From a virus: DNA of 29,994 nt. Numbering within the stretch: the stretch's first letter is position 1; each line of letters opens with the position of its first letter. Below, in pieces: positions 1,229 to 29,293 of the stretch. The notes beneath the pieces are model-generated. The model was not told where the DNA came from. It ran no database searches and saw nothing but the letters and a program-made list of their open reading frames with translations. Location of the stretch: IMG/VR virus record IMGVR_UViG_3300034112_001838, positions 1 through 29,994 of that record; one strand, given 5' to 3'. Made by a program: the position numbers and the translations under genes.

Positions 1229-1923
1229 TGGCTGAAAACAAGTCCTACCAATTCGGCCCCGTTCTGACCGACCGCATCATCAGCGTGGTGAAGCGCGTCG
1301 ACTCGATGCCTTACCAGGCTGGGCTGTCGCGGATACAGACTCGGTTTGAGGATGAGCCGTCCCCCGGCCAAAAGCTCAAGCGCGGCACCTACACCGGCTC
1401 GTGGGCCATCGGCACAACGGCCGTCGTAACGCTCGTCGGCTCGACGCAGACCTACGCAGTCACTAACTACTGCATCGACGCCGAGGGCAGCACGGCGTCG
1501 TCGGCCTCGTTCAACGTCGTCTTCGGATCCGTCATGGGGACGCAGACGGCGGTCGAGGTTGAGTCGCCACCCAAAGACATAATTCGGGCCTGCACGTTTA
1601 GCGGATCATGGGCAATTAACGAAACGAAGACGCTGACATTTCAAGGCAGCACAAACACCGCAGCGGCCTGGAATCAACTATTCACGATAGGAGACGCCTG
1701 CACAGAGCAGATAGCGTACATCGCGAAAGTCCCAACCGTCGAGCAACAGAATAACCCCGCCTGGCATTTGCTGAACGTGCAACACCACGAGACGGCCGTA
1801 ATTACTTCAGTTTCATTAACCACAGCCGCCATCGAGTTCACTCGCATCCGAGCCTGGATTCCCTACCCCGGCGAGACGGCGACGCTCTCGCTCCCCATCT
1901 CAGCAGAAACCGCATGCTCGTAA
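1228..1923 (+). CDS. Probable structural protein with an internal beta-motif duplication (231 aa)
   Basis: The gene starts at ATG 1228, sharing one base with the upstream TGA. The product is Thr/Ser/Val rich and carries two copies of a motif: TYTGSWAIGTTAVVTLVGST near residue 54 and TFSGSWAINETKTLTFQGST near residue 122, about 68 residues apart. Spaced beta hairpins like these are common in phage decoration and tail proteins. The end runs 10 bases into the next gene. I do not recognise the family. The link to the virion is inferred from neighbours and beta-rich composition. Confidence 0.55.
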   Translation: MAENKSYQFGPVLTDRIISVVKRVDSMPYQAGLSRIQTRFEDEPSPGQKLKRGTYTGSWAIGTTAVVTLVGSTQTYAVTNYCIDAEGSTASSASFNVVFGSVMGTQTAVEVESPPKDIIRACTFSGSWAINETKTLTFQGSTNTAAAWNQLFTIGDACTEQIAYIAKVPTVEQQNNPAWHLLNVQHHETAVITSVSLTTAAIEFTRIRAWIPYPGETATLSLPISAETACS

Positions 1924-4619: not shown

Positions 4620-4621
4620 CC

Positions 4622-4993
4622 ATGAGTTGCGTCGAAAAAACCTACGAGAACGGTGAAGCCGTCTACCGCGACTGCCATACCGGCGCGCCGGCAGCGGCCC
4701 ACATGCCGGAAACCGGGCCTGGGACGGAACTCAAAACGCTGCTGAAGGACTGGTTCGGGATCGTTTCCAACCTCGGCTGCTCGTGCAACGCGATGGCTAA
4801 GAAGATGGACGCCAACGGGCCAGAGTGGTGCCAAGGGCCGGGGATGCCGGAAATCCTCCAGGCCATGCGAACGGAGCATTCCCAGCGCAGGGCCAAGCGC
4901 GAGACGATCCTGCCGTGGAGCGAGACTGGGGCGAAGTGGCTGATTAGGAAAGCCTGCCAGCGGGCCGCCCAAAAGGCCGTGGACAACCCCTAG
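4622..4993 (+). CDS. Small conserved-type Cys/Trp motif protein (123 aa)
   Basis: ATG 4622 follows the previous stop by 2 bases. The central part reads GTELKTLLKDWFGIV, then GCSCNAMAKKMDANGPEWC, then a helical IL..M segment. This pattern (C-x-C, K-x-M-D, G-x-x-W-C) is one I have met in small uncharacterised proteins of planctomycetes and their phages; that recollection is not proof. The paired Cys could bind a metal. The C-terminal part is basic and helical (KAKRETILPW, RKACQRAAQK). The stop codon TAG forms the start of a TAGCCTAC element that precedes the next gene. Function is unknown. Confidence 0.6.
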   Translation: MSCVEKTYENGEAVYRDCHTGAPAAAHMPETGPGTELKTLLKDWFGIVSNLGCSCNAMAKKMDANGPEWCQGPGMPEILQAMRTEHSQRRAKRETILPWSETGAKWLIRKACQRAAQKAVDNP

Positions 4994-5529: not shown

Positions 5530-6677
5530 AGGCGGCGATCATCTCGGCGCTGCCTGCGGAGACGCCGGCCGCGGACTCCGAACAGGTCACGCAGCGCCAG
5601 GATGGCGACACGCTCGAGGCGAAGAGCACCTCGCGGCGGATCAAGACCGTGGAAGACCTCCTGCGGCATATCGAAGCCGACATGGCCCGCTACGAGGTGG
5701 CGGCCAGCGAGGCCACAAAGTGGGAGTGTGGGGACGGCGAAGGCGGCAGTATCGAACTCCACCGCGTCTTCGTTCGCCTCAAGCCCAAGGCCGGGCCTGG
5801 AGTGCTTGAGTGCGTCGAGGGGATGATCAAGGCTGCCGGGAAGAAGCTGCGCCAGCACAAGCCTGCCGCCCGAAGCAGAAAGCCCCGCAAGGACGGCCTC
5901 TGGCAAGTTCTCATCGTCTCTGACACGCACTTCGGAGCGTATGCGTGGGGCAAGACTACCGGCGGCGCCGACTATGACCTGGGCATCGCGGAATCGCGGG
6001 TCACGGCGGCAACAAGCCGACTGTTTGACGCCGGGGACGAGTACCAGCCGGCCCTCCGCACGATCGCCTTCCTTGGCGACCTGTTCCACTTCGACACACC
6101 CGCAGGCACGACAACCAGCGGGACGCCGCTCGAGCGGGACGGACGCATCCAGAAGGTCATCAACGTCGCATCCGACGTTCTACTTGGCATCGTCGAGCGG
6201 TCGGCGGCGACCGTCCCGACGGACGTCTTCACCGTCAACGGCAACCACGACGAAGTCCTGACATGGGCGTTTCAGCGAATACTCCTAGAGCGCTACCGCG
6301 GAGTTTCGTCCGTCAACGTGAGAACGCAGTTCACCGGCCGCCAGTACGCCCCATACGGGCGGAACTTGCTGGGCTTCTGCCACGGCCACAAAGCCAAGCG
6401 GAAGCTGCCCCAGATCATGGCGCTCGAGCAGTCTGCGGCCTGGAGCGAAAGCGTCTATCGGGAGTGGCACACAGGCCACCTCCACCACCAGGCCGCCGAG
6501 AACAACAAACCGCTGGACACGCTTGATGGAGTGATCGTCAGAACGGCCCCCACGGTCGTCCCGCCGGACGATTGGCACTCGGCCGGTGGCTTCATTGGCG
6601 CGAGGCAGTGCATGGAGACGTTTCTGTACCGCCCCGAGGGTGGGCTAGTTTCCATGCACGTTGCGGGGGTGGAATAA
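5511..6677 (+). CDS. Calcineurin-like metallophosphoesterase (388 aa)
   Basis: ATG 5511 has CAGGAG 6 bases upstream. The catalytic domain starts near residue 130 and carries the metal-binding set in order: SDTHFGAY (D-x-H, about 137), FLGDLFHFD (G-D, about 188), NGNHDE (about 243), CHGHKAK (about 290) and HTGHLHH (GH-x-H, about 320). These are the hallmark of binuclear-metal phosphoesterases such as Mre11/SbcD-type nucleases and phage phosphoesterases. The first 120 residues are a helical region absent from minimal family members and may bind DNA or a partner. It is followed with a one-base overlap by nucleotide-metabolism genes, suggesting a role in DNA processing. Nuclease versus phosphatase activity cannot be decided from sequence. 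Confidence 0.8.
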   Translation: MAAKGLKAAIISALPAETPAADSEQVTQRQDGDTLEAKSTSRRIKTVEDLLRHIEADMARYEVAASEATKWECGDGEGGSIELHRVFVRLKPKAGPGVLECVEGMIKAAGKKLRQHKPAARSRKPRKDGLWQVLIVSDTHFGAYAWGKTTGGADYDLGIAESRVTAATSRLFDAGDEYQPALRTIAFLGDLFHFDTPAGTTTSGTPLERDGRIQKVINVASDVLLGIVERSAATVPTDVFTVNGNHDEVLTWAFQRILLERYRGVSSVNVRTQFTGRQYAPYGRNLLGFCHGHKAKRKLPQIMALEQSAAWSESVYREWHTGHLHHQAAENNKPLDTLDGVIVRTAPTVVPPDDWHSAGGFIGARQCMETFLYRPEGGLVSMHVAGVE

Positions 6678-7180
6678 TGGCTACCCTGCACCACAACACC
6701 CCGATCGACTGGCTCCGCATCGCCGCCCAGGAGGCCGCTGCGGGGAGCCACGATATGCACACCCAGAACGGCGCGATCCTGGTGCCGCGGGGCGCGGCCT
6801 ACGTCTGCGTCGGCGTCAACAAGGTGCCGGCGGGCGTGTGGGCGGCGCCGGATCGGCTCGCGCGGCCGGCGAAATACGAATACATCGAACACGCGGAGCG
6901 GATGGCGATCTACCAAGCCGCGCGGGTCGGCACGCCGACGCTGGGGGCGACGCTTTACTGCCCCTGGTTCGCCTGCATGGACTGTGCCAGGGCGATCATC
7001 GCGGCCGGGATCGCCGAGGTCGTCGGCCATGTCAAACCGCGGGCCGCGACGCCGGAGCGGTGGACGTCGAGCATCGTCAAGGCCGAGGCCATGCTCCGCG
7101 AGGCGAACGTCAGTATGCGGTGGCTCGCGGAGCCGCTGGGGGTGACGATTAAGTTCGACGGCCAGGAGATGACGCTGTGA
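6677..7180 (+). CDS. dCMP deaminase-like zinc deaminase (167 aa)
   Basis: The ATG at 6677 overlaps the previous TAA by one base. A longer in-frame extension back to 6572 lies wholly inside that gene and is rejected. Zinc-binding deaminase motifs are present: HAE at residues 72-74 (ligand and catalytic Glu) and CPWFACMDC at 95-103 (Cys100 and Cys103). The first position of the usual PCxxC is Ala instead of Pro. Family members convert dCMP to dUMP, feeding dTTP or modified-base synthesis. The adjacent, overlapping dNMP kinase gene supports a nucleotide-pool role. It could also act on another deoxycytidine derivative. Confidence 0.75.
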   Translation: MATLHHNTPIDWLRIAAQEAAAGSHDMHTQNGAILVPRGAAYVCVGVNKVPAGVWAAPDRLARPAKYEYIEHAERMAIYQAARVGTPTLGATLYCPWFACMDCARAIIAAGIAEVVGHVKPRAATPERWTSSIVKAEAMLREANVSMRWLAEPLGVTIKFDGQEMTL

Positions 7181-7731
7181 TCATTGGACTCTGCGGGGCG
7201 GCCGGGGCGGGGAAAAACACGGTCGCGGCGCGGCTGTGCCTGGAGCATCAGTTCGTGCCGCTGGCGTTCGCCGACCCGATCTATGACGCCGTGTCGGCGA
7301 TCACCGGGCTGACTGTTGAGCAGTTGCAGGACAGGAGCCGCAAAGAGAACGCACTCGGGTGGATCAGTTGCTCGCCCCGGAGACTCCTTCAGACCCTCGG
7401 CACCGACTGGGGCCGAAACATGATCCATCCCGAAATCTGGGTCATGGCGACGATGCAGCGGGCAGAGGCCGCCGGAGGCGACCTCTGCATCACCGACGTC
7501 CGCTTCCCCAACGAGGCGGCGGCCATCAAGGCCCGCGGCGGCGTCGTGTGGCGGGTGGTGCGTCCCGGCTTTGGCGTCCTGGACGGCGAGACGGCGAGCC
7601 ACGAGAGCGAGCGCGGCATTCCCGACGAATACGTCGATGACGAGATCGTAAACGGCGGCGGCATTCTGGCCCTCCAGGCCGCCGTCGATGCCGCAATGAG
7701 CCGGCTACAGGCCGCTACAATGGTGGTATAG
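7177..7731 (+). CDS. Deoxynucleoside monophosphate kinase (184 aa)
   Basis: GTG start at 7177 overlapping the upstream TGA by 4 bases. The P-loop is GAAGAGKNT at residues 7-15, of the GxAGxGK(D/N)T form seen in T4 gp1-type dNMP kinases. Further on are LAFADPIYD, RRLLQTLGTDWGR (about 68-80) and a Walker-B-like ITDVRFPNEAAAI (about 107-119), which together are diagnostic for this family. It would phosphorylate dNMPs, possibly including unusual bases, to dNDPs. Length matches the family. Coupling with the deaminase suggests they supply precursors for phage DNA. Confidence 0.85.
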   Translation: MIIGLCGAAGAGKNTVAARLCLEHQFVPLAFADPIYDAVSAITGLTVEQLQDRSRKENALGWISCSPRRLLQTLGTDWGRNMIHPEIWVMATMQRAEAAGGDLCITDVRFPNEAAAIKARGGVVWRVVRPGFGVLDGETASHESERGIPDEYVDDEIVNGGGILALQAAVDAAMSRLQAATMVV

Positions 7732-10727: not shown

Positions 10728-11035
10728 CACTCGCAGAACTCACGCTGCCGATCTCCTACGATGACGCCAGGCAATACGCGCTGGTGTTCTCGCCGCAACT
10801 GGCGGGCCGTCTCGCGGAACTGCACGCCGATCATGGCAGCCCCAACTGCGTGCCGATGCCTCGCGTCTTGACGGACGGCAGGCTCATGCTCTGCGCGGAT
10901 GTGCTGACCGAAGTGGGGCCGGGTGGCTGGCTACATGGGATGTGGGAAGCGGCCGACCAGAGCGTCCTCCTGCCTGCGGTGGAGGTGATCCCTTGGAGCG
11001 AGGCGGTGGCGCTGCTGCCGGTGGAGGCTAACTGA
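10724..11035 (+). CDS. Unidentified small protein after the fibre gene (103 aa)
   Basis: ATGA overlap with the fibre gene at 10724-10727. The product is soluble with an acidic bias (LAELHADHGS, MPRVLTDGRLMLCADVLTEVG, PAVEVIPWSEAVALLPVEAN) and shows no motif I recognise. Position after a fibre gene is typical for a chaperone, attachment or accessory protein, but that is only inference. Its end overlaps the end of the convergent integrase gene by 8 bases, so the last codons are read on both strands. Confidence 0.5.
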   Translation: MTLAELTLPISYDDARQYALVFSPQLAGRLAELHADHGSPNCVPMPRVLTDGRLMLCADVLTEVGPGGWLHGMWEAADQSVLLPAVEVIPWSEAVALLPVEAN

Positions 11036-11882
11036 CTTTCGGCAGGACGTCTGGCGCGTTCGTGTCGGGCCGCACGATCCTCGGGTCCAGGTACTTCCTC
11101 GTGACGGCCGGACTGGAGTGGCCCATCAGCGTCTGCGGGTCGCCGCCGGCTGCGGCGTAGTAGGAAGCCGACGTCTTCCTGACCCGGTGGAACTTGCTCA
11201 TCCGGTCATTCGGCAGGCCCGCCCGCTCGCAGATGCGGCCGAGGCGGTGCCAGATCAGGGTGTAGCTGCGATCCCAGTCGTAGACAAGTTTTCGCTTCGT
11301 CCTCGTCGCCATGATGGCTTCGTAGCACTCTGGTGGGATCGGTCGGTAGATGTCGGCTCGCTGTCCCTTTCGGCCCTCGGCGCGAAAGATCACCGCCTGC
11401 GGCTCGACATCCTGCCACTCGAGCGCCAGCAGGCCGCCGATCCGCTCACCCGTCCAGTACGCGGCCTGGAGGATCGAGCGGAACCAGAGGCTCGCCGGCA
11501 CGCCGCAGATTTCACCCTGCTCGCCGTCGCAGGCCACGAGGAGTTTCCTGAACTCGTCGATCAGCCACGCTCGAGGCACCCGCTCCGGCACGCGGATCGT
11601 GCGCATCTGCGGCCAAGGGCATAGGCCACGGCGGGCGGCGAACTCCGCGAGCGCGTGCAACTGCGCCCTGTCTTTCGCTGCCGTCCCGACCGACCGCGTC
11701 TTCAGACGCCAGGCCAGGAACTTGGCGAGTTCCAGTTCGTCAAGGTGTTGCTCTACTGTCGGCTCAACGCCGCCGAGGAATTGACGATACTTCTTGATCG
11801 TCATTTCGTAGATGCTAACCGTGCGGTCGCTAATCCCCTTCAGTGGGGCGTAGATGTCACTAAGAAGCTGGTGCAGCGTCAA
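11028..11882 (-). CDS. Tyrosine recombinase / phage integrase (284 aa)
   Basis: The C-terminal catalytic domain carries the tyrosine-recombinase residues: the first Arg in GERIGG (about residue 147), H-x-x-R in HRVRKT (about 234), the second His in LMGHSS and Tyr in VTRKYLDP (about 264-270). The N-terminal part (TVSIYEMTIKKYRQFLGG) is a SAM-like core-binding domain. No large N-terminal arm domain is present, so it is a compact integrase. The initiator appears to be TTG at 11882-11880, with GGGAG upstream on the minus strand. It converges with the fibre-associated gene and is transcribed away from the replication genes. This marks the element as temperate or integrative. No attachment site could be identified in the flanks. 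Confidence 0.88.
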   Translation of the reverse strand: MTLHQLLSDIYAPLKGISDRTVSIYEMTIKKYRQFLGGVEPTVEQHLDELELAKFLAWRLKTRSVGTAAKDRAQLHALAEFAARRGLCPWPQMRTIRVPERVPRAWLIDEFRKLLVACDGEQGEICGVPASLWFRSILQAAYWTGERIGGLLALEWQDVEPQAVIFRAEGRKGQRADIYRPIPPECYEAIMATRTKRKLVYDWDRSYTLIWHRLGRICERAGLPNDRMSKFHRVRKTSASYYAAAGGDPQTLMGHSSPAVTRKYLDPRIVRPDTNAPDVLPKVS

Positions 11883-19478: not shown

Positions 19479-19951
19479 ATACCCTACTGTTCGACACATT
19501 CATCCCGCCGGAAGAACAGAAACCGTCGAAGCAAAAGCGCGCGCGCGCGACTGCCGGCCCCCAGCCGGAGGCTGAAGCAGCCCAAAAAAAGCCTCTTATA
19601 TTTAGGGACATTCGCCCCCTCGGCCGTATCGACCACACCTACGCCTGTGCCGACGATGCCTGCGGAGCCGAGTGCCACGACATCCTCGACGAGGATCGCG
19701 GCCGGTGGCTCCTGGAGTGCTGTTTCTGCGGCACGAAGCAGGAGGCGAAGGCGATAGCCGGCGTCATCCAGGAGCCGGCGCCTGACGCATTCCGGTTCCG
19801 CGACGGCCGCTACGCCGGCCAGACGCTCGACGAGGCTGCCGCCACGCCGCGGGGAGCCGACTACCTCGCGTGGGCGGCCGAGAGCCACCCGAGGCCGGCG
19901 GTTCGCGAGGCGGTGAAAACTTGGCTTGCCCAATGCGACCGCCGACTGTAG
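19475..19951 (+). CDS. Zinc-ribbon plus ExoX-C-like domain protein (158 aa)
   Basis: ATG 19475, overlapping the helicase by 4 bases. Residues about 57-90 hold Cys pairs (CADDACGAEC and ECCFCGTK) that look like a zinc ribbon. Residues about 107-150 (FRFRDGRYAGQTLDEAA, GADYLAWAAES) match the short ExoX C-terminal-type motif (F-x-x-G-x-x-x-G-x-T-L, Y-L-x-W). Such modules accompany nucleases and helicases in phages. The N-terminus is low-complexity, with a GC dinucleotide run and an A7 run that creates A-AAA-AAG in frame at 19585-19591. The TAG stop is part of the next element. Confidence 0.65.
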   Translation: MNTLLFDTFIPPEEQKPSKQKRARATAGPQPEAEAAQKKPLIFRDIRPLGRIDHTYACADDACGAECHDILDEDRGRWLLECCFCGTKQEAKAIAGVIQEPAPDAFRFRDGRYAGQTLDEAAATPRGADYLAWAAESHPRPAVREAVKTWLAQCDRRL

Positions 19952-19957
19952 CCTACA
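19913..19957 (+). promoter_or_regulatory. Copy 3: promoter-like cassette A ahead of the deazaguanine genes
   Basis: TTGCCC (19926-19931), a 17-base spacer and TAGCCT (19949-19954), within the palindrome-like TGTAGCCTACA (19947-19957). The 18 bases GTGAAAACTTGGCTTGCC (19913-19930) recur at 21612 and the 16 bases to TGTAG are the same length in both. The upstream stop codon TAG (19949-19951) is part of the element. GAAGGAGC follows, then ATG 19984. Confidence 0.65.
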
Positions 19958-19983
19958 GACCGCCACACACGAAGGAGCGTTAT

Positions 19984-20310
19984 ATGGCCGAAGGACTCAA
20001 GCACGCGCTGACTCTTGACCTGTTTCACAGGTGGAAGTACGAGACAGACGAAATGGAGGGCGTCTGCGAAATCGCCCACGACAAGATGGTCGTGAAGTGC
20101 ATCTTCCAAGACGTCACCAAGTCGTTCTATGACGTCCTGGAAATCGACGCCGTCATCCGTAAGCGACTCGAGCAGCCCGTGTCAGTCGAGCGGCTCGCGG
20201 AGCAGCTTGCCAGCGACATCGAAGGCGTGACGGTGACCGTCATGGGCCGGGCGAAGACGCACGGTTGGATCACATCGACAGCCATGAGCGGAGGCTCGTT
20301 GTCATCGTGA
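19984..20310 (+). CDS. QueD-like (6-carboxytetrahydropterin synthase-type) protein, divergent (108 aa)
   Basis: ATG 19984 is preceded by GAAGGAGC. The sequence tracks the T-fold pattern of QueD: an H-R after a first strand (LDLFHRW), then C-x-x-x-H in VCEIAHDKMVVK, where E. coli QueD has C-x-x-x-H-x-H, then a strand, D-V-L-E-I-D-A-V-I-R and P-V-S-V-E-R-L-A, and a last strand with MGRAKTHG. The catalytic Cys and two zinc His are thus plausibly kept, while the second His of HxH appears as Lys. The motif comparison is by eye. QueD makes the 7-deazaguanine precursor, and this gene opens a four-gene overlapping set ending in a transglycosylase-like protein. It may be degenerate or have another role. 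Confidence 0.45.
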   Translation: MAEGLKHALTLDLFHRWKYETDEMEGVCEIAHDKMVVKCIFQDVTKSFYDVLEIDAVIRKRLEQPVSVERLAEQLASDIEGVTVTVMGRAKTHGWITSTAMSGGSLSS

Positions 20311-20513
20311 GCACGCTGTTCGACGAGCGCGTGGTGGAGATTCGTGCCGCCGGGATTGCACCGAAGTGCATTCGCAAGAAAAAGTCCGAATGCACGCCGG
20401 AGCAGTGGGCCGCGCACCGCGAATACATGCGGATTCGATACTTAGACCCTCTCGTCCAGCATCTCCACAAGGCGAGCCAGTTGAAGTATCTGGCGAAGAA
20501 AGCGTCGAAGTGA
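20307..20513 (+). CDS. Small basic helical protein in the deazaguanine cassette (68 aa)
   Basis: GTG 20307, overlapping the previous gene by 4 bases, and itself overlapping the next by 4. The product is highly basic and helical (CIRKKKSECTPEQWAAHREYM, LHKASQLKYLAKKASK). The start choice rests on the GTGA overlap pattern used throughout this block; an earlier in-frame start at 20265 has no support. Function is unknown. It lies between QueD-like and deoxyribosyltransferase-like genes, so it may be a DNA-contacting partner, but this is speculation. Confidence 0.5.
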   Translation: MSTLFDERVVEIRAAGIAPKCIRKKKSECTPEQWAAHREYMRIRYLDPLVQHLHKASQLKYLAKKASK

Positions 20514-20938
20514 AGAAGGCCGTCATCTACCTGTGTGGACCGATCCACGGCAAGCATGACAGCGATTGTCGCGTGTGGCGCGAGCGCGTGAAAGAGCTGC
20601 TTGCAGAGCACTACCACACATTCAAGTACGAGATTCTTGACCCGATGGATCGTGACTACCGTGGCCTTGAGGAAGGAAACGAGGCCGCAATAGTCAACGC
20701 CGACCTTGGCGATATCGACGCTTCGGACTTCGTCATCGTCAATGCCTCGGAGCCTTCATGGGGGACGGCGATGGAGGTCTTCTACTCCAAGTTGGCCGAG
20801 AAAGTAGTGATCGCGTTTTCGCAGCGCGACATCACATCACCGTGGCTGAAGCACCATGTCTCACACATTTGCCCGACGGTCGAATCAGCGTGCGTCTGCG
20901 TGATGAATCTGAACGCGGATCGGGTGGCGGCCAGATGA
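20510..20938 (+). CDS. Nucleoside 2-deoxyribosyltransferase-like protein (142 aa)
   Basis: GTG 20510, GTGA overlap. YLCGPIHGK near residue 7 is the first nucleotide-binding loop of the family. D-x-x-D-I-D-A-S-D-F-V-I-V-N-A near 70-84 followed by SEPSWGTAMEVFYS (about 85-98) contains the S-x-G-T-x-x-E segment whose Glu is the usual nucleophile. The family swaps or removes bases on deoxyribonucleosides and is also found as DUF4406-like phage proteins. Its place between a QueD-like gene and a transglycosylase-like gene suggests it acts on deazaguanine deoxynucleosides or frees a base, but substrate is unproven. Confidence 0.65.
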   Translation: MKKAVIYLCGPIHGKHDSDCRVWRERVKELLAEHYHTFKYEILDPMDRDYRGLEEGNEAAIVNADLGDIDASDFVIVNASEPSWGTAMEVFYSKLAEKVVIAFSQRDITSPWLKHHVSHICPTVESACVCVMNLNADRVAAR

Positions 20939-21615
20939 TCTACCTTGCAAGCCCAGGCAACCAGCAGCAGGCGGAACACGTCAGTGGGATGCCGGTCCTT
21001 CTTTCCTACGGCCTATACGATCCGTTCCTGGACAAGTACCAGCACACGTTCAGTCGCCTGCTGATCGACAGCGGCGCCTACTCGGTCTTCAACTCGGGCC
21101 AAACTATCGACGTAGCGGCTTACGCTGACTGGTCCCTGCGGTGGGACGGACACGCCGACGCCGTCGCCGGGCTGGACGATATCGCCGGGGATTGGCGGCA
21201 AAGCCTAAAGAACTACGAGGCCATGCCGAACGGGTTTCCTACAATCCACGACACCGACCCGCCGGAGCTTCTCAAGGACTTGGTTCCGATGGCTGTCGCC
21301 CGAGGCGGGTGGCTGGGGCTTGGCCTCAAGCCGCCCAGGCACGGTAAGGAGAGGTTCGTGCGGTGGGTGTGTGACAACGTGCCGGAGGATATCCATATCC
21401 ACGGCTGGGCGCTGCGGGCGTACTCACACGTTCGACGCATCGACAGCATGGACAGCACCAACTGGTGGCGTGACGCCATGAAGGTACGCCGGGACTTGCC
21501 GTGGCTGACATACGGCGAATCGCTGGAGATCATCGTCAAGCGATACCAGCGCGAGAAGCGGATGTTCCGCGAGGACTCCCAGGCGGCTCTGTTTCAGATG
21601 GAGGACGCATCGTGA
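20935..21615 (+). CDS. tRNA-guanine transglycosylase / DpdA-like base-exchange enzyme (226 aa)
   Basis: ATG 20935, ATGA overlap with the previous gene. The sequence shows TGT-fold signatures: LLIDSGAYS at 43-50 (the D-S-G-G/A motif, Asp45), H105-D106 near a strand, WLGLGLKPP around 126-134, HIHGW at 154-158 and RIDSMDSTNWW at 168-178 (second Asp, nucleophile-like Asp170 or 173). A HxH near the end and D-S-x-D-S-x-W are features I associate with DpdA, the enzyme that inserts 7-deazaguanine bases into DNA in phages. At 226 aa it is shorter than bacterial TGT (about 370). A tRNA target is the main alternative. The last bases merge into the next promoter cassette. Confidence 0.6.
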   Translation: MIYLASPGNQQQAEHVSGMPVLLSYGLYDPFLDKYQHTFSRLLIDSGAYSVFNSGQTIDVAAYADWSLRWDGHADAVAGLDDIAGDWRQSLKNYEAMPNGFPTIHDTDPPELLKDLVPMAVARGGWLGLGLKPPRHGKERFVRWVCDNVPEDIHIHGWALRAYSHVRRIDSMDSTNWWRDAMKVRRDLPWLTYGESLEIIVKRYQREKRMFREDSQAALFQMEDAS

Positions 21616-21656
21616 AAACTTGGCTTGCCAAGCGGTCTGGCGGTCTGTAGGCTACA
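21612..21656 (+). promoter_or_regulatory. Copy 4: promoter-like cassette B ahead of csrA, duplicate of cassette A
   Basis: GTGAAAACTTGGCTTGCC (21612-21629) then TTGCCA (21625-21630), a 17-base spacer, TAGGCT (21648-21653) and TGTAGGCTACA (21646-21656). Spacing and the 18-base block match copy 3. The block could also code V-K-T-W-L-A and stop at TAG, exactly as the 3-prime end of the 19475 gene does, so cassette B seems to be a copied fragment of that gene plus promoter. Confidence 0.65.
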
Positions 21657-21685
21657 ACCCACGACAACGGAAGGAGCCGTTTCTC

Positions 21686-21847
21686 ATGCTCGTCATCACG
21701 CGCCGCAAAGGCGAGAAGGTTCAGATCGGGCCTGACATCGAGGTCATGGTCACGCGAGTCGCCGACGGCCAAGTGCGTCTGGCGATCAAGGCACCGGACA
21801 CGACGAAGATCGTGCGGTCGGAGTTGCAGCAACAGGTGCGGACATGA
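21686..21847 (+). CDS. csrA: CsrA/RsmA family carbon-storage regulator, phage-encoded (53 aa)
   Basis: The product, MLVITRRKGEKVQIGPDIEV and onward, follows CsrA throughout: a start similar to M-L-V-L-T-R, G-E-K, IG-x-x-I-E-V, VRLAIKAP, and the key RNA-binding Arg at position 44 (KIVRSEL). ATG 21686 is the natural start, 53 residues, a little shorter than bacterial CsrA (about 61). CsrA dimers bind GGA in RNA hairpin loops and block or change translation. Its leader (ACAACGGAAGGAGC) has GGA over the ribosome site, suggesting possible autocontrol. It precedes a 32-aa membrane peptide gene and the methyltransferase. Confidence 0.88.
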   Translation: MLVITRRKGEKVQIGPDIEVMVTRVADGQVRLAIKAPDTTKIVRSELQQQVRT

Positions 21848-21990: not shown

Positions 21991-24219
21991 GTGAAATACA
22001 TCAGCATCTGTTCCGGCATCGAAGCCGCATCGACCGCGTGGCACGGCCTTGGCTGGACGCCTCTGGCGTTCAGCGAGATTGAGCCGTTTCCGTCGGCCGT
22101 CCTGGCCCAGCGGCACCCGAACGTGCCGAACCTCGGGGACATGAGCAAATACCGCGAGTGGCCCGAAGAGCTGCTTGCGGAGTGCGAACTGCTCGTAGGT
22201 GGCACGCCATGCCAGGCGTTTAGTGTGGCGGGCCTACGGAAGAGCCTTGATGACGAGCGCGGCAACCTCTCGCTCATCTACGTCCACCTGTTCCATCACA
22301 TCAACGAGATTCGGAGGAAGCATGGACGCTCGCCAGCAATTGCTCTTTGGGAAAACGTCCCAGGAGTGCTCTCCACCAAGGACAACGCCTTTGGCTGCTT
22401 CATCAGCGGACTGCTCGGGGTCGATGACACCCTTGAAACTCAAGACGGGAAGTGGCCTAAAGCAGGCTTTCTCGGTAGCGAAACCGTCCGAGTGGGTTAT
22501 CGAGTCCTCGATGCCCAATACTTTGCCGTGGCTCAAAGGCGTCGGCGAGTCTTTCTCGTTGCCGTGCCTTGTGAGCTTGTCGCAAGTCTTGGAGAGCGGG
22601 CCTGTCCATCAGAGATACTTTCTCTCCGAGAAAGCGTGCTCGGGAATCCTCCGACGCGCGGAGAAGCGCGGCAAGCAGTTGCCGGAAGCGCTGCGAAATG
22701 CGCTGCAAGCGGTGGTGGATGCGGCGAACCGTACCACCTTGACCGCGCCATGTTCAACCAAGGAGTGAACGCCCAGTACGAACCGCAGGTTACCGAAAGC
22801 GGCGTGGCATCAAGCATGGTGGCGCGGGGGCCAGCTGCGGTGATGTGGAGCGCCAGCGATCAGGCGAACGCAGAGAGGCTCGTCGATCAGGCTGGGACGC
22901 TCAACTGCAATATGGGCCAGCGCGGCGGCTGGATCGCTCCAAGCGGCCACCCAGACCCAGCCTATGCGCTGTCGGCTGGAAATCAGAGCAAAGGCGGCGT
23001 GTTCGGAAGTGGGCGAGATTCGCAGGACACGTTCGTTGTTGATGCCGGAGCCGTTGCCTTCAAGCCATCACATTACACCCGTGGCAAGGACGGCAAGCCA
23101 GACGAGGTGGCGCCACCGCTGTCGGCCGACGCCGACAAAGGCGACCAGGACACGCTCGTGATGCGGCAGTCCATCGGTTTCAACTGGCAGAACGGCGGCG
23201 GCTACGGGAACGCGAACGACGGCCTGGGGATCACGGAGGAGGGAACGGGGCCGCTGTCGCGTTCACAGGTGCCTGCGTGTGTCACCGGAACGAGGACGCA
23301 CGCACTGACCACTCGAGCTGCGGCAGTCGAAGAGGACGGCACTGGACGCGGGACGCCGATCATCCCCGTAGCCTTCTCCGCGAAGGACTCTGGCTGCGAT
23401 GCCACCGAGGAATGCAGTCCGACGATGCGTGCGATGCAGCACGTTGACGGGAACGCAAACGCTGGCGGCCAAATCGCCGTCGCCATCGGCGTCGACACCT
23501 ACAACCAGGCCACCTCCGACGTTTCAATCCCGCTGCGAGTCGGCAACGCCAAGGACTCGCTGCCTGCGGTGATGGTTCCGTTCACCAAGGCCAAGCGCGC
23601 CCAGAGCGTCAACGACGACGAGTCGTGGGTTCCTGGCGAAGTCGCTCCGACGCAGAATCAGTTCGATGTTGGCGACACCAGGGCGACGACGGTGGTGGCG
23701 TTCACGCAGAACAGCAGAGACGAAGTTCGTCAGATCGACGGCGACGGGCAGATCACGGGGGCGCTGTCTGCTGACGCGGGGATGCACCAGACGAACTATC
23801 TGGCGTTCGCTCCGCTCCAAGGCGGCCGGTCGATGCCGGTGACGCCTGAGTCTCCGACTCTTGAGGCCGGCACAGGCAATAAGGCTCCGGCTGTTCTGGC
23901 GTTCGCCAACCGTAGCCGCGACGGCGTCAAGATGCCGGAGGTAATGAAGGACGGAGTCGTCCCGGCGCTGACGAACCCAGGCCGTGGCGGTCGGGCTGAT
24001 GCCGTAAACGTGGCGACGCACATGCAAGTGCGCCGCCTCACCCCGACCGAGTGCTGCCGCTTGCAGGGCTTCCCCGACGATCACTGCGACATCATCTTCC
24101 GCAAGAAGCCCGCCGCCGACGGGCCGAAGTACCGCGCCCTCGGCAACAGCATGGCTGTCCCGTGCATGGCGTGGCTCGGCTACCGTATCCACATGGCTAC
24201 ACACCGCGATACCAAGTGA
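21991..24219 (+). CDS. C5-cytosine DNA methyltransferase with long variable region (742 aa)
   Basis: GTG 21991 has AAGGAGG upstream. Motif I (SICSGIEAASTAW, residues 5-17), motif IV GGTPCQAFS (70-78, catalytic Cys74), motif VI ENVPGVLS (121-128), motif VIII AQRRRRVFLV (about 180-190) and motif IX-X RRLTPTECCRLQGFPD (about 681-696) all appear in the right order. The target recognition area between about 225 and 675 is a low-complexity region of degenerate repeats (VAF, GALSADAG, SRD, QNS). Usual m5C methyltransferases are 330-450 residues. Large phage relatives with such inserts exist. It lies in the csrA unit, with no cognate restriction gene seen, consistent with self-protection or anti-restriction. 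Confidence 0.88.
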   Translation: MKYISICSGIEAASTAWHGLGWTPLAFSEIEPFPSAVLAQRHPNVPNLGDMSKYREWPEELLAECELLVGGTPCQAFSVAGLRKSLDDERGNLSLIYVHLFHHINEIRRKHGRSPAIALWENVPGVLSTKDNAFGCFISGLLGVDDTLETQDGKWPKAGFLGSETVRVGYRVLDAQYFAVAQRRRRVFLVAVPCELVASLGERACPSEILSLRESVLGNPPTRGEARQAVAGSAAKCAASGGGCGEPYHLDRAMFNQGVNAQYEPQVTESGVASSMVARGPAAVMWSASDQANAERLVDQAGTLNCNMGQRGGWIAPSGHPDPAYALSAGNQSKGGVFGSGRDSQDTFVVDAGAVAFKPSHYTRGKDGKPDEVAPPLSADADKGDQDTLVMRQSIGFNWQNGGGYGNANDGLGITEEGTGPLSRSQVPACVTGTRTHALTTRAAAVEEDGTGRGTPIIPVAFSAKDSGCDATEECSPTMRAMQHVDGNANAGGQIAVAIGVDTYNQATSDVSIPLRVGNAKDSLPAVMVPFTKAKRAQSVNDDESWVPGEVAPTQNQFDVGDTRATTVVAFTQNSRDEVRQIDGDGQITGALSADAGMHQTNYLAFAPLQGGRSMPVTPESPTLEAGTGNKAPAVLAFANRSRDGVKMPEVMKDGVVPALTNPGRGGRADAVNVATHMQVRRLTPTECCRLQGFPDDHCDIIFRKKPAADGPKYRALGNSMAVPCMAWLGYRIHMATHRDTK

Positions 24220-26225: not shown

Positions 26226-26519
26226 ATGGCGCACCGGCCGCTCGAGAAGACGATCGTCGCGAAGGTCATCGCTGCCGCAAGACAGCGGGGCTGGTGGGCG
26301 ATGAAGACGCACGGCAGTGCGTTCGGCGTTGCCGGCCTGCCGGATGTTCTCGTGATCAAGGGCGGTCGTGCGGCGTGGATGGAAGTGAAGCGGCCGGGCG
26401 AGAGTCCGACGAGGATTCAGGAGCACCGGATGCGGGAGTTGGCGGCGGCGGGCTGCCCGGTGGCGGTGGTGACCAGTGCCGGTGACGCCATCGAGTTCCT
26501 TGAGAGGGTCGAGCCGTGA
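26226..26519 (+). CDS. VRR-NUC domain nuclease (97 aa)
   Basis: ATG 26226. The protein matches the small stand-alone VRR-NUC domain: GWWAMKTHGSAFGVAGLPDV (about 21-39, G-x-P-D), LVIKGGRAAWMEVKRPGES (the catalytic E-x-K) and RIQEHRMRELAAAGCPVAVV (Q near 62, then V-V). These are the PD-(D/E)xK-type metal residues. Phage stand-alone VRR-NUC proteins often accompany SNF2 or other helicases and act on branched DNA. It overlaps the aminotransferase gene by 4 bases. Confidence 0.85.
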   Translation: MAHRPLEKTIVAKVIAAARQRGWWAMKTHGSAFGVAGLPDVLVIKGGRAAWMEVKRPGESPTRIQEHRMRELAAAGCPVAVVTSAGDAIEFLERVEP

Positions 26520-27613
26520 TCTACTGCGGACAACCTGACATCGGCGTCGCGGAGGAGTTCGCGGTGCTCGAGGTGCTGCGCGGTGGGCAACTCACCCGCG
26601 GCCCCGTCGTTGCCGACTTTGAGTGGGCGTTTGGTGGCTGGAGCGGCCTCCACATGCACGCCGTGTCGAGCGGCACCGCTGCCTTGCATCTGGCCCTCCT
26701 GGCGGCCGGCGTCGGACCTGGCGACGAGGTCATCGTCCCGGCGACGACGTTCGTGGCGACGGTGAACGCGGTCCTCTACTGCGGCGCGACGCCGGTCGTG
26801 GTGGACGTCGATCCGTTGTCATGGACGATCGACCTGGGCGAGATGGCGGCGGCCGTGACAGAGAAGACGAAGGCGATCATTCCAGTGCATCTGTACGGCG
26901 TCCCAGCGCCGTCGCTGGAGGACTGGAAGGTCGACTACTACCGCTCGACGGGCCGGCGGATCGTCATCATCGAGGACTGCGCCGAAAGCATCGGGTGCCT
27001 CCGCAGCGGCTGGGCGCCGGCTGCGGACATGAACTGCTACTCGTTCTACGGGTCGAAGACGATCACGACCGGCGAGGGCGGCGCCGTCGGCACGCAGGAT
27101 AAGCTCTTCGCGGAGCGGATCGCCCACCTCGCCGGCCAAGCGATGACGCCGACCCGGTACGTCCACGACGCGCTGGGCTGGAACTACCGGATGACCGAGG
27201 TGCAGGCCGCCATCGGCGTGGCGCAGTTGGCGCGGCTCCCAGAGTTCCTGGCGAAGCGGCGGCAGGTGTTTGAGTGGTACAACGCCCGCCTGCCCGACGA
27301 GTTCCGCCGGCAGGCGGTGGCGAAGGACGACACCCACGGCTACTGGGCGTTCGCGGTGGTGGGGGGATACGGCCGCAGCCTCGACCCCCGTCGCGTCGAG
27401 CGGCTGATGCTCGAGGACGGCATCGAGACGCGGCCGATCTTCCCGCCCGTCTGCCACTTCCCGCATGTGCAGGAGAAGTGCAGAGCGGGCCGCACGCTCG
27501 TCGCCGCCGCGCTGTACCGGCACGGCCTCGTCCTGCCGACGCACACCAGCCTGACCGAGAACGATGTGGAGAAAGTATGCGCAAGCCTCGTAAAAGCCGC
27601 GTCCTGTTCGTAG
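26516..27613 (+). CDS. DegT/DnrJ/EryC1-type PLP aminotransferase (365 aa)
   Basis: GTG 26516. The PLP signature is clear: AVSSGTAALHLALLAAGVGPG near residue 48, VIVPATTFVATVNAV near 75, VDVDPLSWTID, IIEDCAESIG (D159-like) and SFYGSKTITTGEGG with the Schiff-base Lys near 181. HLAGQAMTPTRYVHDALGWNYRMT follows, as in sugar aminotransferases. The family adds amino groups to nucleotide sugars. Here it opens an overlapping set with ATP-grasp and methyltransferase genes, which suggests synthesis of an unusual sugar for virion or host surface. Confidence 0.88.
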   Translation: MIYCGQPDIGVAEEFAVLEVLRGGQLTRGPVVADFEWAFGGWSGLHMHAVSSGTAALHLALLAAGVGPGDEVIVPATTFVATVNAVLYCGATPVVVDVDPLSWTIDLGEMAAAVTEKTKAIIPVHLYGVPAPSLEDWKVDYYRSTGRRIVIIEDCAESIGCLRSGWAPAADMNCYSFYGSKTITTGEGGAVGTQDKLFAERIAHLAGQAMTPTRYVHDALGWNYRMTEVQAAIGVAQLARLPEFLAKRRQVFEWYNARLPDEFRRQAVAKDDTHGYWAFAVVGGYGRSLDPRRVERLMLEDGIETRPIFPPVCHFPHVQEKCRAGRTLVAAALYRHGLVLPTHTSLTENDVEKVCASLVKAASCS

Positions 27614-28446
27614 GCGGTGGCCGTCGGGTGTCTCTGGCGAATGAGTTCATCGCCCGAAACGCCGACGTCTACGGCTACGAGTCGAGCATCGACGTCCCCT
27701 TGGCCGACGTTGCCAAGGAGATCGTCGAAGGCATGGACTTCGATGACCCCGAGTGCGGCCCCGACATCCTCGAGTTCGCCGCTCGCCGGAAGATCACGCA
27801 TATCGTTCCGCTCATGGACGAGGCCACGGTGGTGTGCGGTGACATGGAGCAGTGCATCGGCTCGCCGGCCGCCGTGGCGATGCTCTGCCACGACAAACTC
27901 CACTTCGCCAACTGGATGAAGGAGCACCACCCCGACGTCTACCCGGCCCCGCGGTTGACGCGGTATCCGAAGTTCGCCAAGCCCAGGTTCGGCCACGGCT
28001 CCCGCGGGACGAAGGTGCTGCACCGCCCCGAGACAATCGAAATGTCGGCGTCGTGGGTGATCCAGGACTACCTAGACGGCGACGAGGTGTCGGTCGACCT
28101 GTTCCTGGGCGCCGGCCAGTGCCGTGGCGCCGTGGCCCGCAGCCGCGACCGCGTCGAGGGCGGCGAGGTCATCGAGTCGACGGTGCTCGCTCCCGAGGCG
28201 TCGGTGAACTACCTGATCGACGCCGCGGCGGTGTGTGCGGACTTAGGCGTCGTCGGGCCGGCGAACGTGCAGTTCAAGGGCGGGAAGATCATCGAGGTCA
28301 ACCCACGTTTCGGCGGCGGCAGCGTCCTGTCGATCGCCGCCGGCCTGCCGCTGGTGGCCCTGGCCCTCGGCCACAACGTGGACGGCCCGCCCTGGAAGAT
28401 CGCGCCGCTGACAATGCGGCGATACCACGCGGAGAGTTTTCGATGA
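27577..28446 (+). CDS. ATP-grasp carboxylate-amine ligase-like protein (289 aa)
   Basis: ATG 27577 overlaps the aminotransferase by 37 bases. RVLFVGGGRRVSLANEF begins a Rossmann-like half; HIVPLMDEATVV and CHDKLHFANWMKEH follow as in CarB-like ATP-grasp proteins. The later half has the ATP-grasp core: KPRFGHGSRGTKVL (flexible loop), WVIQDYLDGDEVSVDLFL and IIEVNPRFGGGSVLS (E-x-N-P-R metal motif). It would ligate a carboxylate and an amine with ATP. Beside an amino-sugar enzyme, it may attach an amino acid to a sugar, but the substrate is only inferred. Confidence 0.8.
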   Translation: MRKPRKSRVLFVGGGRRVSLANEFIARNADVYGYESSIDVPLADVAKEIVEGMDFDDPECGPDILEFAARRKITHIVPLMDEATVVCGDMEQCIGSPAAVAMLCHDKLHFANWMKEHHPDVYPAPRLTRYPKFAKPRFGHGSRGTKVLHRPETIEMSASWVIQDYLDGDEVSVDLFLGAGQCRGAVARSRDRVEGGEVIESTVLAPEASVNYLIDAAAVCADLGVVGPANVQFKGGKIIEVNPRFGGGSVLSIAAGLPLVALALGHNVDGPPWKIAPLTMRRYHAESFR

Positions 28447-28994
28447 GTGAGTCGCTGATTGACGCCTACAAGCTCGACTGCCTCGTGGCACTCCTCGAGT
28501 CGACGGACAAGCTCGACGGCGACATCGTCGAGGTCGGCGTCTACAAGGGAGGCAGCGCTCGAGCAATCGTCGACAATGCCGGACAGTCGAAGGTCTTCCT
28601 GTTCGACACCTTCACGGGGATGCCGAATCACGACCCGACGCTGGACGGGAAGTGGGGCGTTGGCTCGTTCAGTGACACGAGCGCCGTGGCGGTCATGGAT
28701 ATGTTCTACGGCGACAAGCGGGTGAGCGTCTACCCCGGCGTCTTCCCTACCGAGACGGGCCACGTTCTCGCCGGCCGCCGCCTGCGGTTCGTCCATCTGG
28801 ACGTCGACAACTACGAGTCCTACGCCGCGTGCCTGGACTTCCTCTACGAGCAAGTTGTCCCCGGCGGCCTCCTCGTGTTCGACGATTACGGCGAAGACTG
28901 CTGCCCCGGCGCGAAGGCTGCGGTGGACGAGTTCTTCATCGGCCACGCGCAGGTGGTGATCGAAGGCCCGGTGGTGTATGTGGTGAAGCCATGA
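28443..28994 (+). CDS. TylF-like SAM-dependent O-methyltransferase (183 aa)
   Basis: ATG 28443. DGDIVEVGVYKGGSARAI (about 24-41) is motif I; VFLFDTFTGMP (about 50-60) and FVHLDVDNYESYAACLDFLY (about 118-138) with GGLLVFDDYGE (about 144-154) follow the macrocin/TylF pattern, including metal-binding Asp residues. Such enzymes methylate sugar hydroxyls. Its 4-base overlap and position after aminotransferase and ATP-grasp supports a sugar tailoring pathway. It is shorter than TylF itself. Confidence 0.85.
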   Translation: MSESLIDAYKLDCLVALLESTDKLDGDIVEVGVYKGGSARAIVDNAGQSKVFLFDTFTGMPNHDPTLDGKWGVGSFSDTSAVAVMDMFYGDKRVSVYPGVFPTETGHVLAGRRLRFVHLDVDNYESYAACLDFLYEQVVPGGLLVFDDYGEDCCPGAKAAVDEFFIGHAQVVIEGPVVYVVKP

Positions 28995-29293
28995 AGACGG
29001 CGGTCATTGACCTGGACGGCGTGATCTGTGAGGAGCGGCCGACGTTCGAGCGGTCGCTGGCGAAGGAGTTGCCAGACGCCCGCGAGATGCTCGAGAGCCT
29101 GCGGACGGCCGGCTACAGGATCATCATCCACACCGCCAGATCGTGGTCGGAGTTGGCGATGACGGAGCAGTGGCTGTTTGAACGCAGCATCCCTTATGAC
29201 CAGTTGGTGATGGGCAAGCCGGTCGCGGACATCGTCGTGGATGATCGGGCGGTTGCGAGCCTGGAGGAGGCTGTCGATGCCGTGCAACAGTGA
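28991..29293 (+). CDS. HAD-family phosphatase-like protein (100 aa)
   Basis: ATG 28991, ATGA overlap. HAD motif I is DLDGV near residues 7-11 (Asp7, Asp9), motif II IIIHTAR near 46-52, Lys in GKPVAD near 74, motif IV VVDDRA near 80-85. No cap domain is present, so it is a minimal HAD. It could remove phosphate from a sugar or nucleotide intermediate made by its neighbours. The next gene starts within its last codons. Confidence 0.8.
   Translation: MKTAVIDLDGVICEERPTFERSLAKELPDAREMLESLRTAGYRIIIHTARSWSELAMTEQWLFERSIPYDQLVMGKPVADIVVDDRAVASLEEAVDAVQQ

Follow-up and report, generated by a model that had tools for sequence, protein, structure and literature searches.

A predicted 7-deazaguanine DNA-modification cassette with a compact DpdA and a DNPH1/DmtZ-like protein in a phage genome fragment

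The phage record IMGVR_UViG_3300034112_001838 is a genome fragment of 29,994 bases, which in its full length is called the window below. It holds four consecutive genes, all on one strand, which raise the question whether this phage modifies its DNA with 7-deazaguanine and which part each product would play. The genes encode protein A of 108 amino acids (aa), the small protein B, a member of the nucleoside deoxyribosyltransferase family (NDT) and a 226-aa protein of the type of the tRNA-guanine transglycosylases (TGTs) and the phage enzyme DpdA. The original prediction, made from the sequence alone, took them for a 7-deazaguanine cassette. This is backed by relatives in which que genes accompany the same TGT gene, and the operon is predicted with good confidence to modify the phage DNA by 7-deazaguanine.

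The compact DpdA and the cassettes of its relatives

The coordinates predicted for the four genes were borne out (Table 1), and at each of the three junctions the genes overlap by 4 bases (GTGA, GTGA and ATGA). The genes are real. Their frames recur in other records and are kept by purifying selection: comparison with these homologues gave ratios of non-synonymous to synonymous substitution rates between 0.08 and 0.27 for all four (A, 0.27 and 0.23; B, 0.20 in one pair, a second pair being saturated at synonymous sites; NDT, 0.26; TGT, 0.08-0.19). The window itself had no nucleotide match among known phages, and a search of it for RNA families gave no match.

The 226-aa product carries the D-S-G-A-Y, HIHGW and D-S-M-D-S motifs that were noticed at the outset, and profile searches as well as structure prediction placed it among the TGT/DpdA enzymes, as had been supposed. 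It matched the PHROG queuine tRNA-ribosyltransferase families phrog_887 (8.8e-14) and phrog_7068 (5.8e-8). Alignment of its family by hhalign with 11 phage DpdAs, including Erebus and the experimentally studied systems of 9g and Dp-1, gave a probability of 99.3% (E 1.8e-20), while the controls (QueD, QueE, NDT and A) reached at most 0.4%. In this alignment D45 and H156 are the counterparts of Asp72 and His196 of 9g, and D173 of DSTNW is that of the Asp in the DSSSW motif; D45, H156 and D173 are invariant in 19 family members. A His at 9g position 196 is present in DpdA and absent from DpdA2 (PMC6884629). The AlphaFold2 (AF2) model of the protein had a predicted local distance difference test score (pLDDT) of 86.9. 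Foldseek alone retrieved generic TIM barrels only; the TGT match came from re-ranking with VIA-align, in which 49 of the 50 listed rows were TGTs and the remaining one was the Cap10 deazaguanine enzyme from a complex of a cyclic-oligonucleotide-based antiphage signalling system (CBASS). The best match was the archaeosine TGT 1iq8 (Z 15.1, 3.0 A over 212 residues), and Z values of 14-15 to TGTs indicate a TGT-type (beta/alpha)8 fold with the catalytic Asp motifs. Sequence and model together identify the 226-aa product as a compact DpdA.

It shares with the phage DpdA/preQ0-DNA system of 9g, CAjan and Rosebush (PMC6884629) the motifs LDSGA[FY], LDxI.GD, HG[FW] and DS[ST]xW, the equivalent of His196 and, in relatives, QueE, QueD and QueC beside the gene; the window is without FolE, like the dpdA-only group. 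It differs from this system in the length of the enzyme, which belongs to a separate clade, and in the addition of NDT, A and B to the operon. The clade has a support of 100/100 in the TGT tree, the backbone of which is unresolved, so that gains and losses of NDT are not countable. A pattern search of 84,980 bacterial and archaeal genomes revealed no relative of the compact DpdA, and no prophage copy of its family was seen.

A TGT fold would also suit an enzyme that modifies host tRNA by queuosine-type exchange for phage translation instead of DNA, and a tRNA role has been proposed for phages that carry que genes but no DpdA (PMC6884629). For the 226-aa protein this is very improbable: it groups with the phage DpdAs and keeps their His, its single Cys means that it cannot hold the zinc site of tRNA TGTs (CxCxxC...H), and its length leaves little room for tRNA-binding parts.

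The IMG/VR searches for relatives (22, then 36) revealed true QueE, QueD and QueC genes that overlap or adjoin the compact-DpdA gene. The cassettes, with our locus numbers, read QueE-QueC-QueD-TGT (L002), QueE-QueD-NDT-TGT (L003 and L004/5), CsrA-QueD-QueE-NDT-B-TGT (L006), CsrA-QueD-QueE-NDT-TGT (L007), QueE-NDT-TGT (L008-L010), QueE-TGT-NDT (L084/86/87), QueE-A-QueC-TGT (L011/L012), QueE-QueC-TGT (L104), QueE-TGT (L016, L101-103 and L105), TGT-QueE (L014/15/17), TGT-QueD (L095) and B-A-TGT (L056/L074). At other compact-DpdA loci the TGT stands without such neighbours, and family searches of the whole records of the first 16 relatives counted QueD 3, QueC 2, radical S-adenosylmethionine proteins 6 and FolE 0. 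The presence of QueE, QueD and QueC beside the compact DpdA of relatives makes a role in 7-deazaguanine DNA modification well supported.

Besides the compact DpdA there is another family of DpdA-like enzymes, phrog_15826, whose members are shorter (hhalign to DpdA 83.5%, E 8e-6) and have relatives in mycobacteriophages that are annotated as DpdA-like tRNA-guanine transglycosylase. Its cassettes are B-A-NDT-TGT15826 (record G005), B-TGT15826-A-NDT (L071-L073), TGT15826-A (L075) and TGT15826-QueD-NDT (L063-L068). G005 possesses two DpdA-like enzymes of different families, one in each of two cassettes (L045 15589-17772 and L046 7330-8796). Vibrio phage vB_VpaS_R29Z (L128) has a full-length phrog_887 DpdA plus a short phrog_15826 one, and in L065 a gene resembling 3'-phosphoadenosine-5'-phosphosulfate (PAPS) reductase (4048-4800) follows the TGT15826-QueD-NDT cassette.

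In the 30-kb record of the window, family searches detected no FolE, QueE or QueC, in agreement with the original prediction, and likewise no QueD; as it is a fragment, these genes could lie outside. The layout is indeed an unusual one, and only the host or DNA beyond the fragment can supply the precursor.

NDT and the proposed mechanism

The third protein had been called a deoxyribosyltransferase. Its membership of PF05014 (Nuc_deoxyrib_tr; 6.6e-11, above the cut-off) stands, and its residues sharpen the assignment to a 5'-monophosphate enzyme of the DNPH1/DmtZ type. A profile search of PDB sequences matched nucleoside deoxyribosyltransferase, CMP N-glycosidase and DNPH1/Rcl. Human DNPH1 has the triad Y24, D80 and E104, and its Ser98 holds the 5'-phosphate (PMC10603095). 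Y7, D65, E89 and S83 of the window NDT match these residues, with identical distances between Asp and Glu (24) and between Ser and Glu (6). The triad is invariant in 12 NDT members; S83 (in PSWGTAME) occurs in most members and is replaced by Gly in L063-L068. The Trypanosoma brucei NDT has an Asp at the Ser position (PDCGTAFE), and Asp or Asn at this position marks nucleoside-type enzymes (PMC12884076). From the DNPH1-type residue set, including the phosphate Ser, NDT is predicted to act on 5'-monophosphates and not on nucleosides, which we consider likely. Compared with DNPH1/Rcl and MilB, nucleotide N-glycosidases of PF05014 with the same triad, phosphate Ser and spacing, it belongs to a phage-specific subfamily with a SPWL lid-like motif and resides within deazaguanine operons. 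Second, weaker PF05014 matches lie inside long frames of 386 and 317 aa in records G002 (27778-27948) and G003 (44502-44666), respectively.

NDT occurs in seven layouts with the compact DpdA family and in three with the second DpdA-like family. An NDT of the window type was found in only 4 of 50,697 phage records, each of a cultured phage, and three of these four lie in 7-deazaguanine loci: QueE-x-QueC-QueD-NDT-FolE..DpdA in Aminobacter phage Erebus, QueE-x-NDT-QueC-QueD-FolE..DpdA in Rhizobium phage RHph_X3_2 and QueC-FolE-DpdA..NDT in Edwardsiella phage ZHS, each with a phrog_887 DpdA. Against the background rate of QueC (263 of 50,697 phage records, 0.5%) the probability of this by chance is roughly 6e-7 if the records are independent. 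A fifth virus, Halorubrum virus 29 (HRTV-29), has an NDT related to the window type and carries DpdA (PMC8651126). In both Erebus and RHph_X3_2, QueE is overlapped by 4 bases by the gene that comes after it, which is small and hypothetical (L124 4453-4707 and L126 4741-4989, respectively).

Among the IMG/VR cassettes NDT and QueC are never in one operon, an exclusivity that is not significant; NDT as a stand-in for QueC was rejected, as Erebus and RHph_X3_2 carry both. The suggestion that the set might use salvage through NDT was sharpened: NDT is not a mere substitute for missing biosynthesis genes, since it also occurs in complete FolE-QueD-QueE-QueC-DpdA sets. A DNPH1-like NDT as part of phage 7-deazaguanine systems was not described in the literature searched, which took in few subscription papers; according to Hutinet et al. 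undetected 2'-deoxyribosyltransferases cannot be ruled out (PMC6884629).

From gene order, homology, conserved catalytic residues and co-occurrence with que genes we infer every reaction of the mechanism favoured here. The compact DpdA would act on selected guanines of the phage DNA by TGT chemistry, in which one Asp is the nucleophile and the second holds the base; it would break their glycosidic bond and insert a free 7-deazaguanine base (preQ0, preQ1 or 7-carboxy-7-deazaguanine, CDG), which would guard the phage against host restriction. Because the fragment is without FolE, QueE, QueC and QueD, this base would be supplied by the queuosine pathway of the host; there is a precedent in the dpdA-only phage 7-11, which carries 2'-deoxy-7-amido-7-deazaguanosine (dADG) (PMC8306585). 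NDT would split stray 7-deazaguanine (deoxy)nucleotides and return the free base to DpdA, and this recycling would also keep the deaza-dNTP out of replication. As guesses, A could play an accessory part by means of a tunnelling fold of the purine/pterin type, and B could be a small nucleic-acid-binding helper. The mechanism as a whole, with DpdA exchange, host base and NDT recycling, we hold to be somewhat better than an even bet; that NDT works in the base-releasing direction is a tentative proposal, its probability falling a little short of even.

Several points weigh against this proposal. The compact DpdA lacks the C-terminal part of the studied phage DpdAs, which comprise 267-358 residues (printed list, stop included) and so have about 40-130 aa more. 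A DpdA is in itself no guarantee, as phage Orion with DpdA has no modification (PMC8306585). Salvage cannot be the sole role of NDT, judging by the gene neighbourhoods in which it adjoins complete pathways. Finally, an NDT of the window type without detectable TGT is present in the IMG/VR records G017 and G020, and one without detectable DpdA in Moorella phage MTATph1. These last three would be expected if NDT were a general nucleotide-salvage enzyme hitch-hiking in the cassettes with no functional link to DpdA. We think this improbable, given that NDT shares an operon with DpdA in ten layouts, which involve two DpdA-like families, and that three unrelated cultured phages carry both.

The reaction might also run in the other direction. 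The NDT family includes DmtZ of the Z-genome phages, which acts as a dAMP hydrolase and also as a transferase of deoxyribose 5-phosphate onto the Z base (PMC12884076); as it does both, either direction is plausible for the window NDT, which is likewise found with a predicted base modification, is of the 5'-monophosphate type by its binding pocket and retains the phosphate Ser. DmtZ differs in that its catalytic Asp is replaced by Asn and in being part of genomes with adenine replacement (PurZ). A DmtZ-like NDT would transfer deoxyribose 5-phosphate from dGMP to a free 7-deazaguanine base, after which a kinase and the polymerase would complete the incorporation and DpdA would act in parallel. 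The deoxyribosyltransferases left open by Hutinet et al. would accommodate such an enzyme, and a deoxynucleoside monophosphate (dNMP) kinase is present in the NDT- and TGT-containing records of the window, G002 and G003 but in 0 of 11 TGT-only records of at least 30 kb. However, this contrast is confounded by the relatedness of the window, G002 and G003, and the kinase is absent from the NDT-positive G005, G021, G023, G024 and Erebus (G023 and G024 are short fragments; L071, from another record of their type, has it). All contexts of NDT are compatible with a recycling or removal of deaza-nucleotides; the charging of a base agrees with them a little less well, since it would make DpdA in part redundant within one operon. 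We consider charging nearly as likely as release of the base, if on balance unlikely, and its extension to a second route to 7-deazaguanine DNA, by NDT, kinase and polymerase parallel to DpdA and with protein A tailoring the inserted base, is more doubtful still.

Proteins A and B

Protein A had been regarded as a shortened QueD that lacks one zinc His. This did not hold: it has no match to the QueD family PF01242, hhalign yielded 1.2% and 0.5%, as against 100% for true QueDs from relatives, and the whole zinc set is absent. No match was found in Pfam, PHROG or NCBIfam, nor to QueF (PF14489) at E 0.1 in 33 records. As FolE, QueD or QueF protein A was rejected by profile, a test that is weak for tunnelling-fold (T-fold) proteins, as QueD versus FolE and QueD versus QueF fail also. 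A PqqD-like identity was dismissed as well (weak PDB match, E 0.03; the model has a C-terminal hairpin). In eight homologues 37 positions are invariant, including C28, D33, E69 and H93, the last (in THGW) being the sole invariant His. In the loci read, homologues of A lie within TGT cassettes, except for a partial match in L076; none was found in phage isolates or, by the pattern search, in the 84,980 bacterial and archaeal genomes.

The AF2 model of A is of moderate quality (pLDDT 71). With Foldseek it had no significant match (proteasome subunits ranked first, E 0.26 or worse), and with VIA-align most of the top 33 rows were T-fold enzymes, mostly ahead of unrelated folds: QueF-Like 5k0p was best (Z 7.8 over 80 aa, a Z below 8 not being decisive), and uricase, GTP cyclohydrolase I, dihydroneopterin aldolase and 6-pyruvoyltetrahydropterin synthase (PTPS) were also matched. 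This model suggests that A is a probable T-fold accessory protein. It would resemble the QueF-Like archaeosine synthase and other T-fold enzymes in its predicted core (Z 6-8) and differs from them in having no sequence relationship, another loop at the cysteine and no zinc ligands.

Two more specific roles were weighed. Protein A might be related to QueF-Like and change the nitrile of inserted preQ0 to an amide, amidine or amine, as the best structural match (Z 7.8 and 7.4) and the invariant Cys28 and Asp33 would allow. This is unlikely, as Z is tied with other T-fold enzymes at this pLDDT, PF14489 does not match, and a tight hairpin at Cys28, as read from the secondary structure, leaves little room for the cysteine loop of QueF-Like. 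Slightly less likely again is a highly diverged QueD completing a QueE-A-QueC-TGT pathway. In L011 protein A does lie between QueE and QueC in a 49-kb record with no true QueD, A and QueD are never in one cassette, its PVSVERLAE resembles PTSxENLAE, and PTPS is among the T-fold matches (Z 6.6); but A has neither the zinc His set nor the catalytic LDH/ET motifs, hhalign stays at about 1%, and the exclusivity comes from few cassettes and is not significant.

Gene B is conserved in the cassettes of L006, L056, L046 and L071-L074. The protein had no family match; that it is a small nucleic-acid-binding helper is a guess.

Cassette borders, neighbouring genes and significance

The cassette occupies a fixed site between a 158-aa gene and csrA and is flanked by two copies of a 66-nt direct repeat (Table 1), 73% identical, with the consensus TTGCC-N18-TAGSCTAC followed by a ribosome-binding region. 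The pattern TTGCC-N{14,22}-TAGSYTAC occurs 2 times in the window against 0.01 expected, and nowhere beyond the two borders. The same element, with identical spacing, is present at the same two borders in L011, though the cargo there is QueE-A-QueC-TGT. Its position at both borders, also in L011, indicates that the cassette is its own transcription unit at a fixed site with exchangeable content. A strict sigma-70 scan of the window did not list the element, so that its action as a promoter is putative.

Table 1. Features of the cassette and of related genes in the window
Feature	Coordinates	Strand	Basis
66-nt repeat copy 1; promoter-like TTGCC-N18-TAGCCTAC (19926-19956) and ribosome-binding region ahead of A	19913..19978	+	direct repeat
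Gene A, 108 aa; probable T-fold protein, not QueD	19984..20310	+	model and structure comparison
Gene B, 68 aa; small, basic and perhaps DNA-binding protein showing the pattern C..C..H and RxY	20307..20513	+	conserved in relatives; role inferred
NDT, 142 aa; predicted DNPH1/DmtZ-like (deoxy)nucleoside 5'-monophosphate N-glycosidase or transferase; Y7, D65, E89, phosphate Ser83	20510..20938	+	PF05014, PDB profile matches, residue spacing
Compact DpdA, 226 aa; TGT-fold, predicted DNA guanine/7-deazaguanine exchange enzyme; D45, H156, D173	20935..21615	+	phrog_887, hhalign, AF2 and VIA-align
66-nt repeat copy 2; promoter-like TTGCC-N18-TAGGCTAC (21625-21655) before csrA; 3' cassette border	21612..21677	+	direct repeat
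csrA-like gene, next transcription unit	21686..21847	+	PF02599 4.7e-20; border gene common to L006, L007 and L011 cassettes (synteny)
dNMP kinase; possible partner if NDT makes deaza-dNMP (weak link)	7177..7731	+	PF21448 9.1e-16

Directly after csrA a C5-cytosine DNA methyltransferase of 742 aa is encoded (21991-24219), with a very long insertion between conserved blocks. The dNMP kinase gene overlaps that of a dCMP deaminase (6572-7731), a pair that is conserved in G002 and G003. A tyrosine integrase gene on the opposite strand (11028-11882) has relatives in G002, G003, G005, G017 and G020, and these phages, like that of the window, may be temperate. In region 26516-29293 a gene for a DegT-type sugar aminotransferase precedes frames that, by eye, are ATP-grasp-like, methyltransferase-like and haloacid dehalogenase (HAD)-like, an arrangement that resembles a cluster for glycan or surface modification. 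The Cys-rich 901-aa protein encoded at 1914-4619, with weak PATR and cadherin-like matches, is probably a virion surface protein.

The analysis names the DNPH1/DmtZ-like NDT as a conserved, uncharacterised component of phage 7-deazaguanine systems, one that bears on how phages handle or incorporate 7-deazaguanine bases other than by DpdA alone. Its occurrence in the cultured phages Erebus, RHph_X3_2 and ZHS makes this role testable. The 226-aa DpdA would represent a minimal scaffold for guanine exchange, which could serve DNA labelling.

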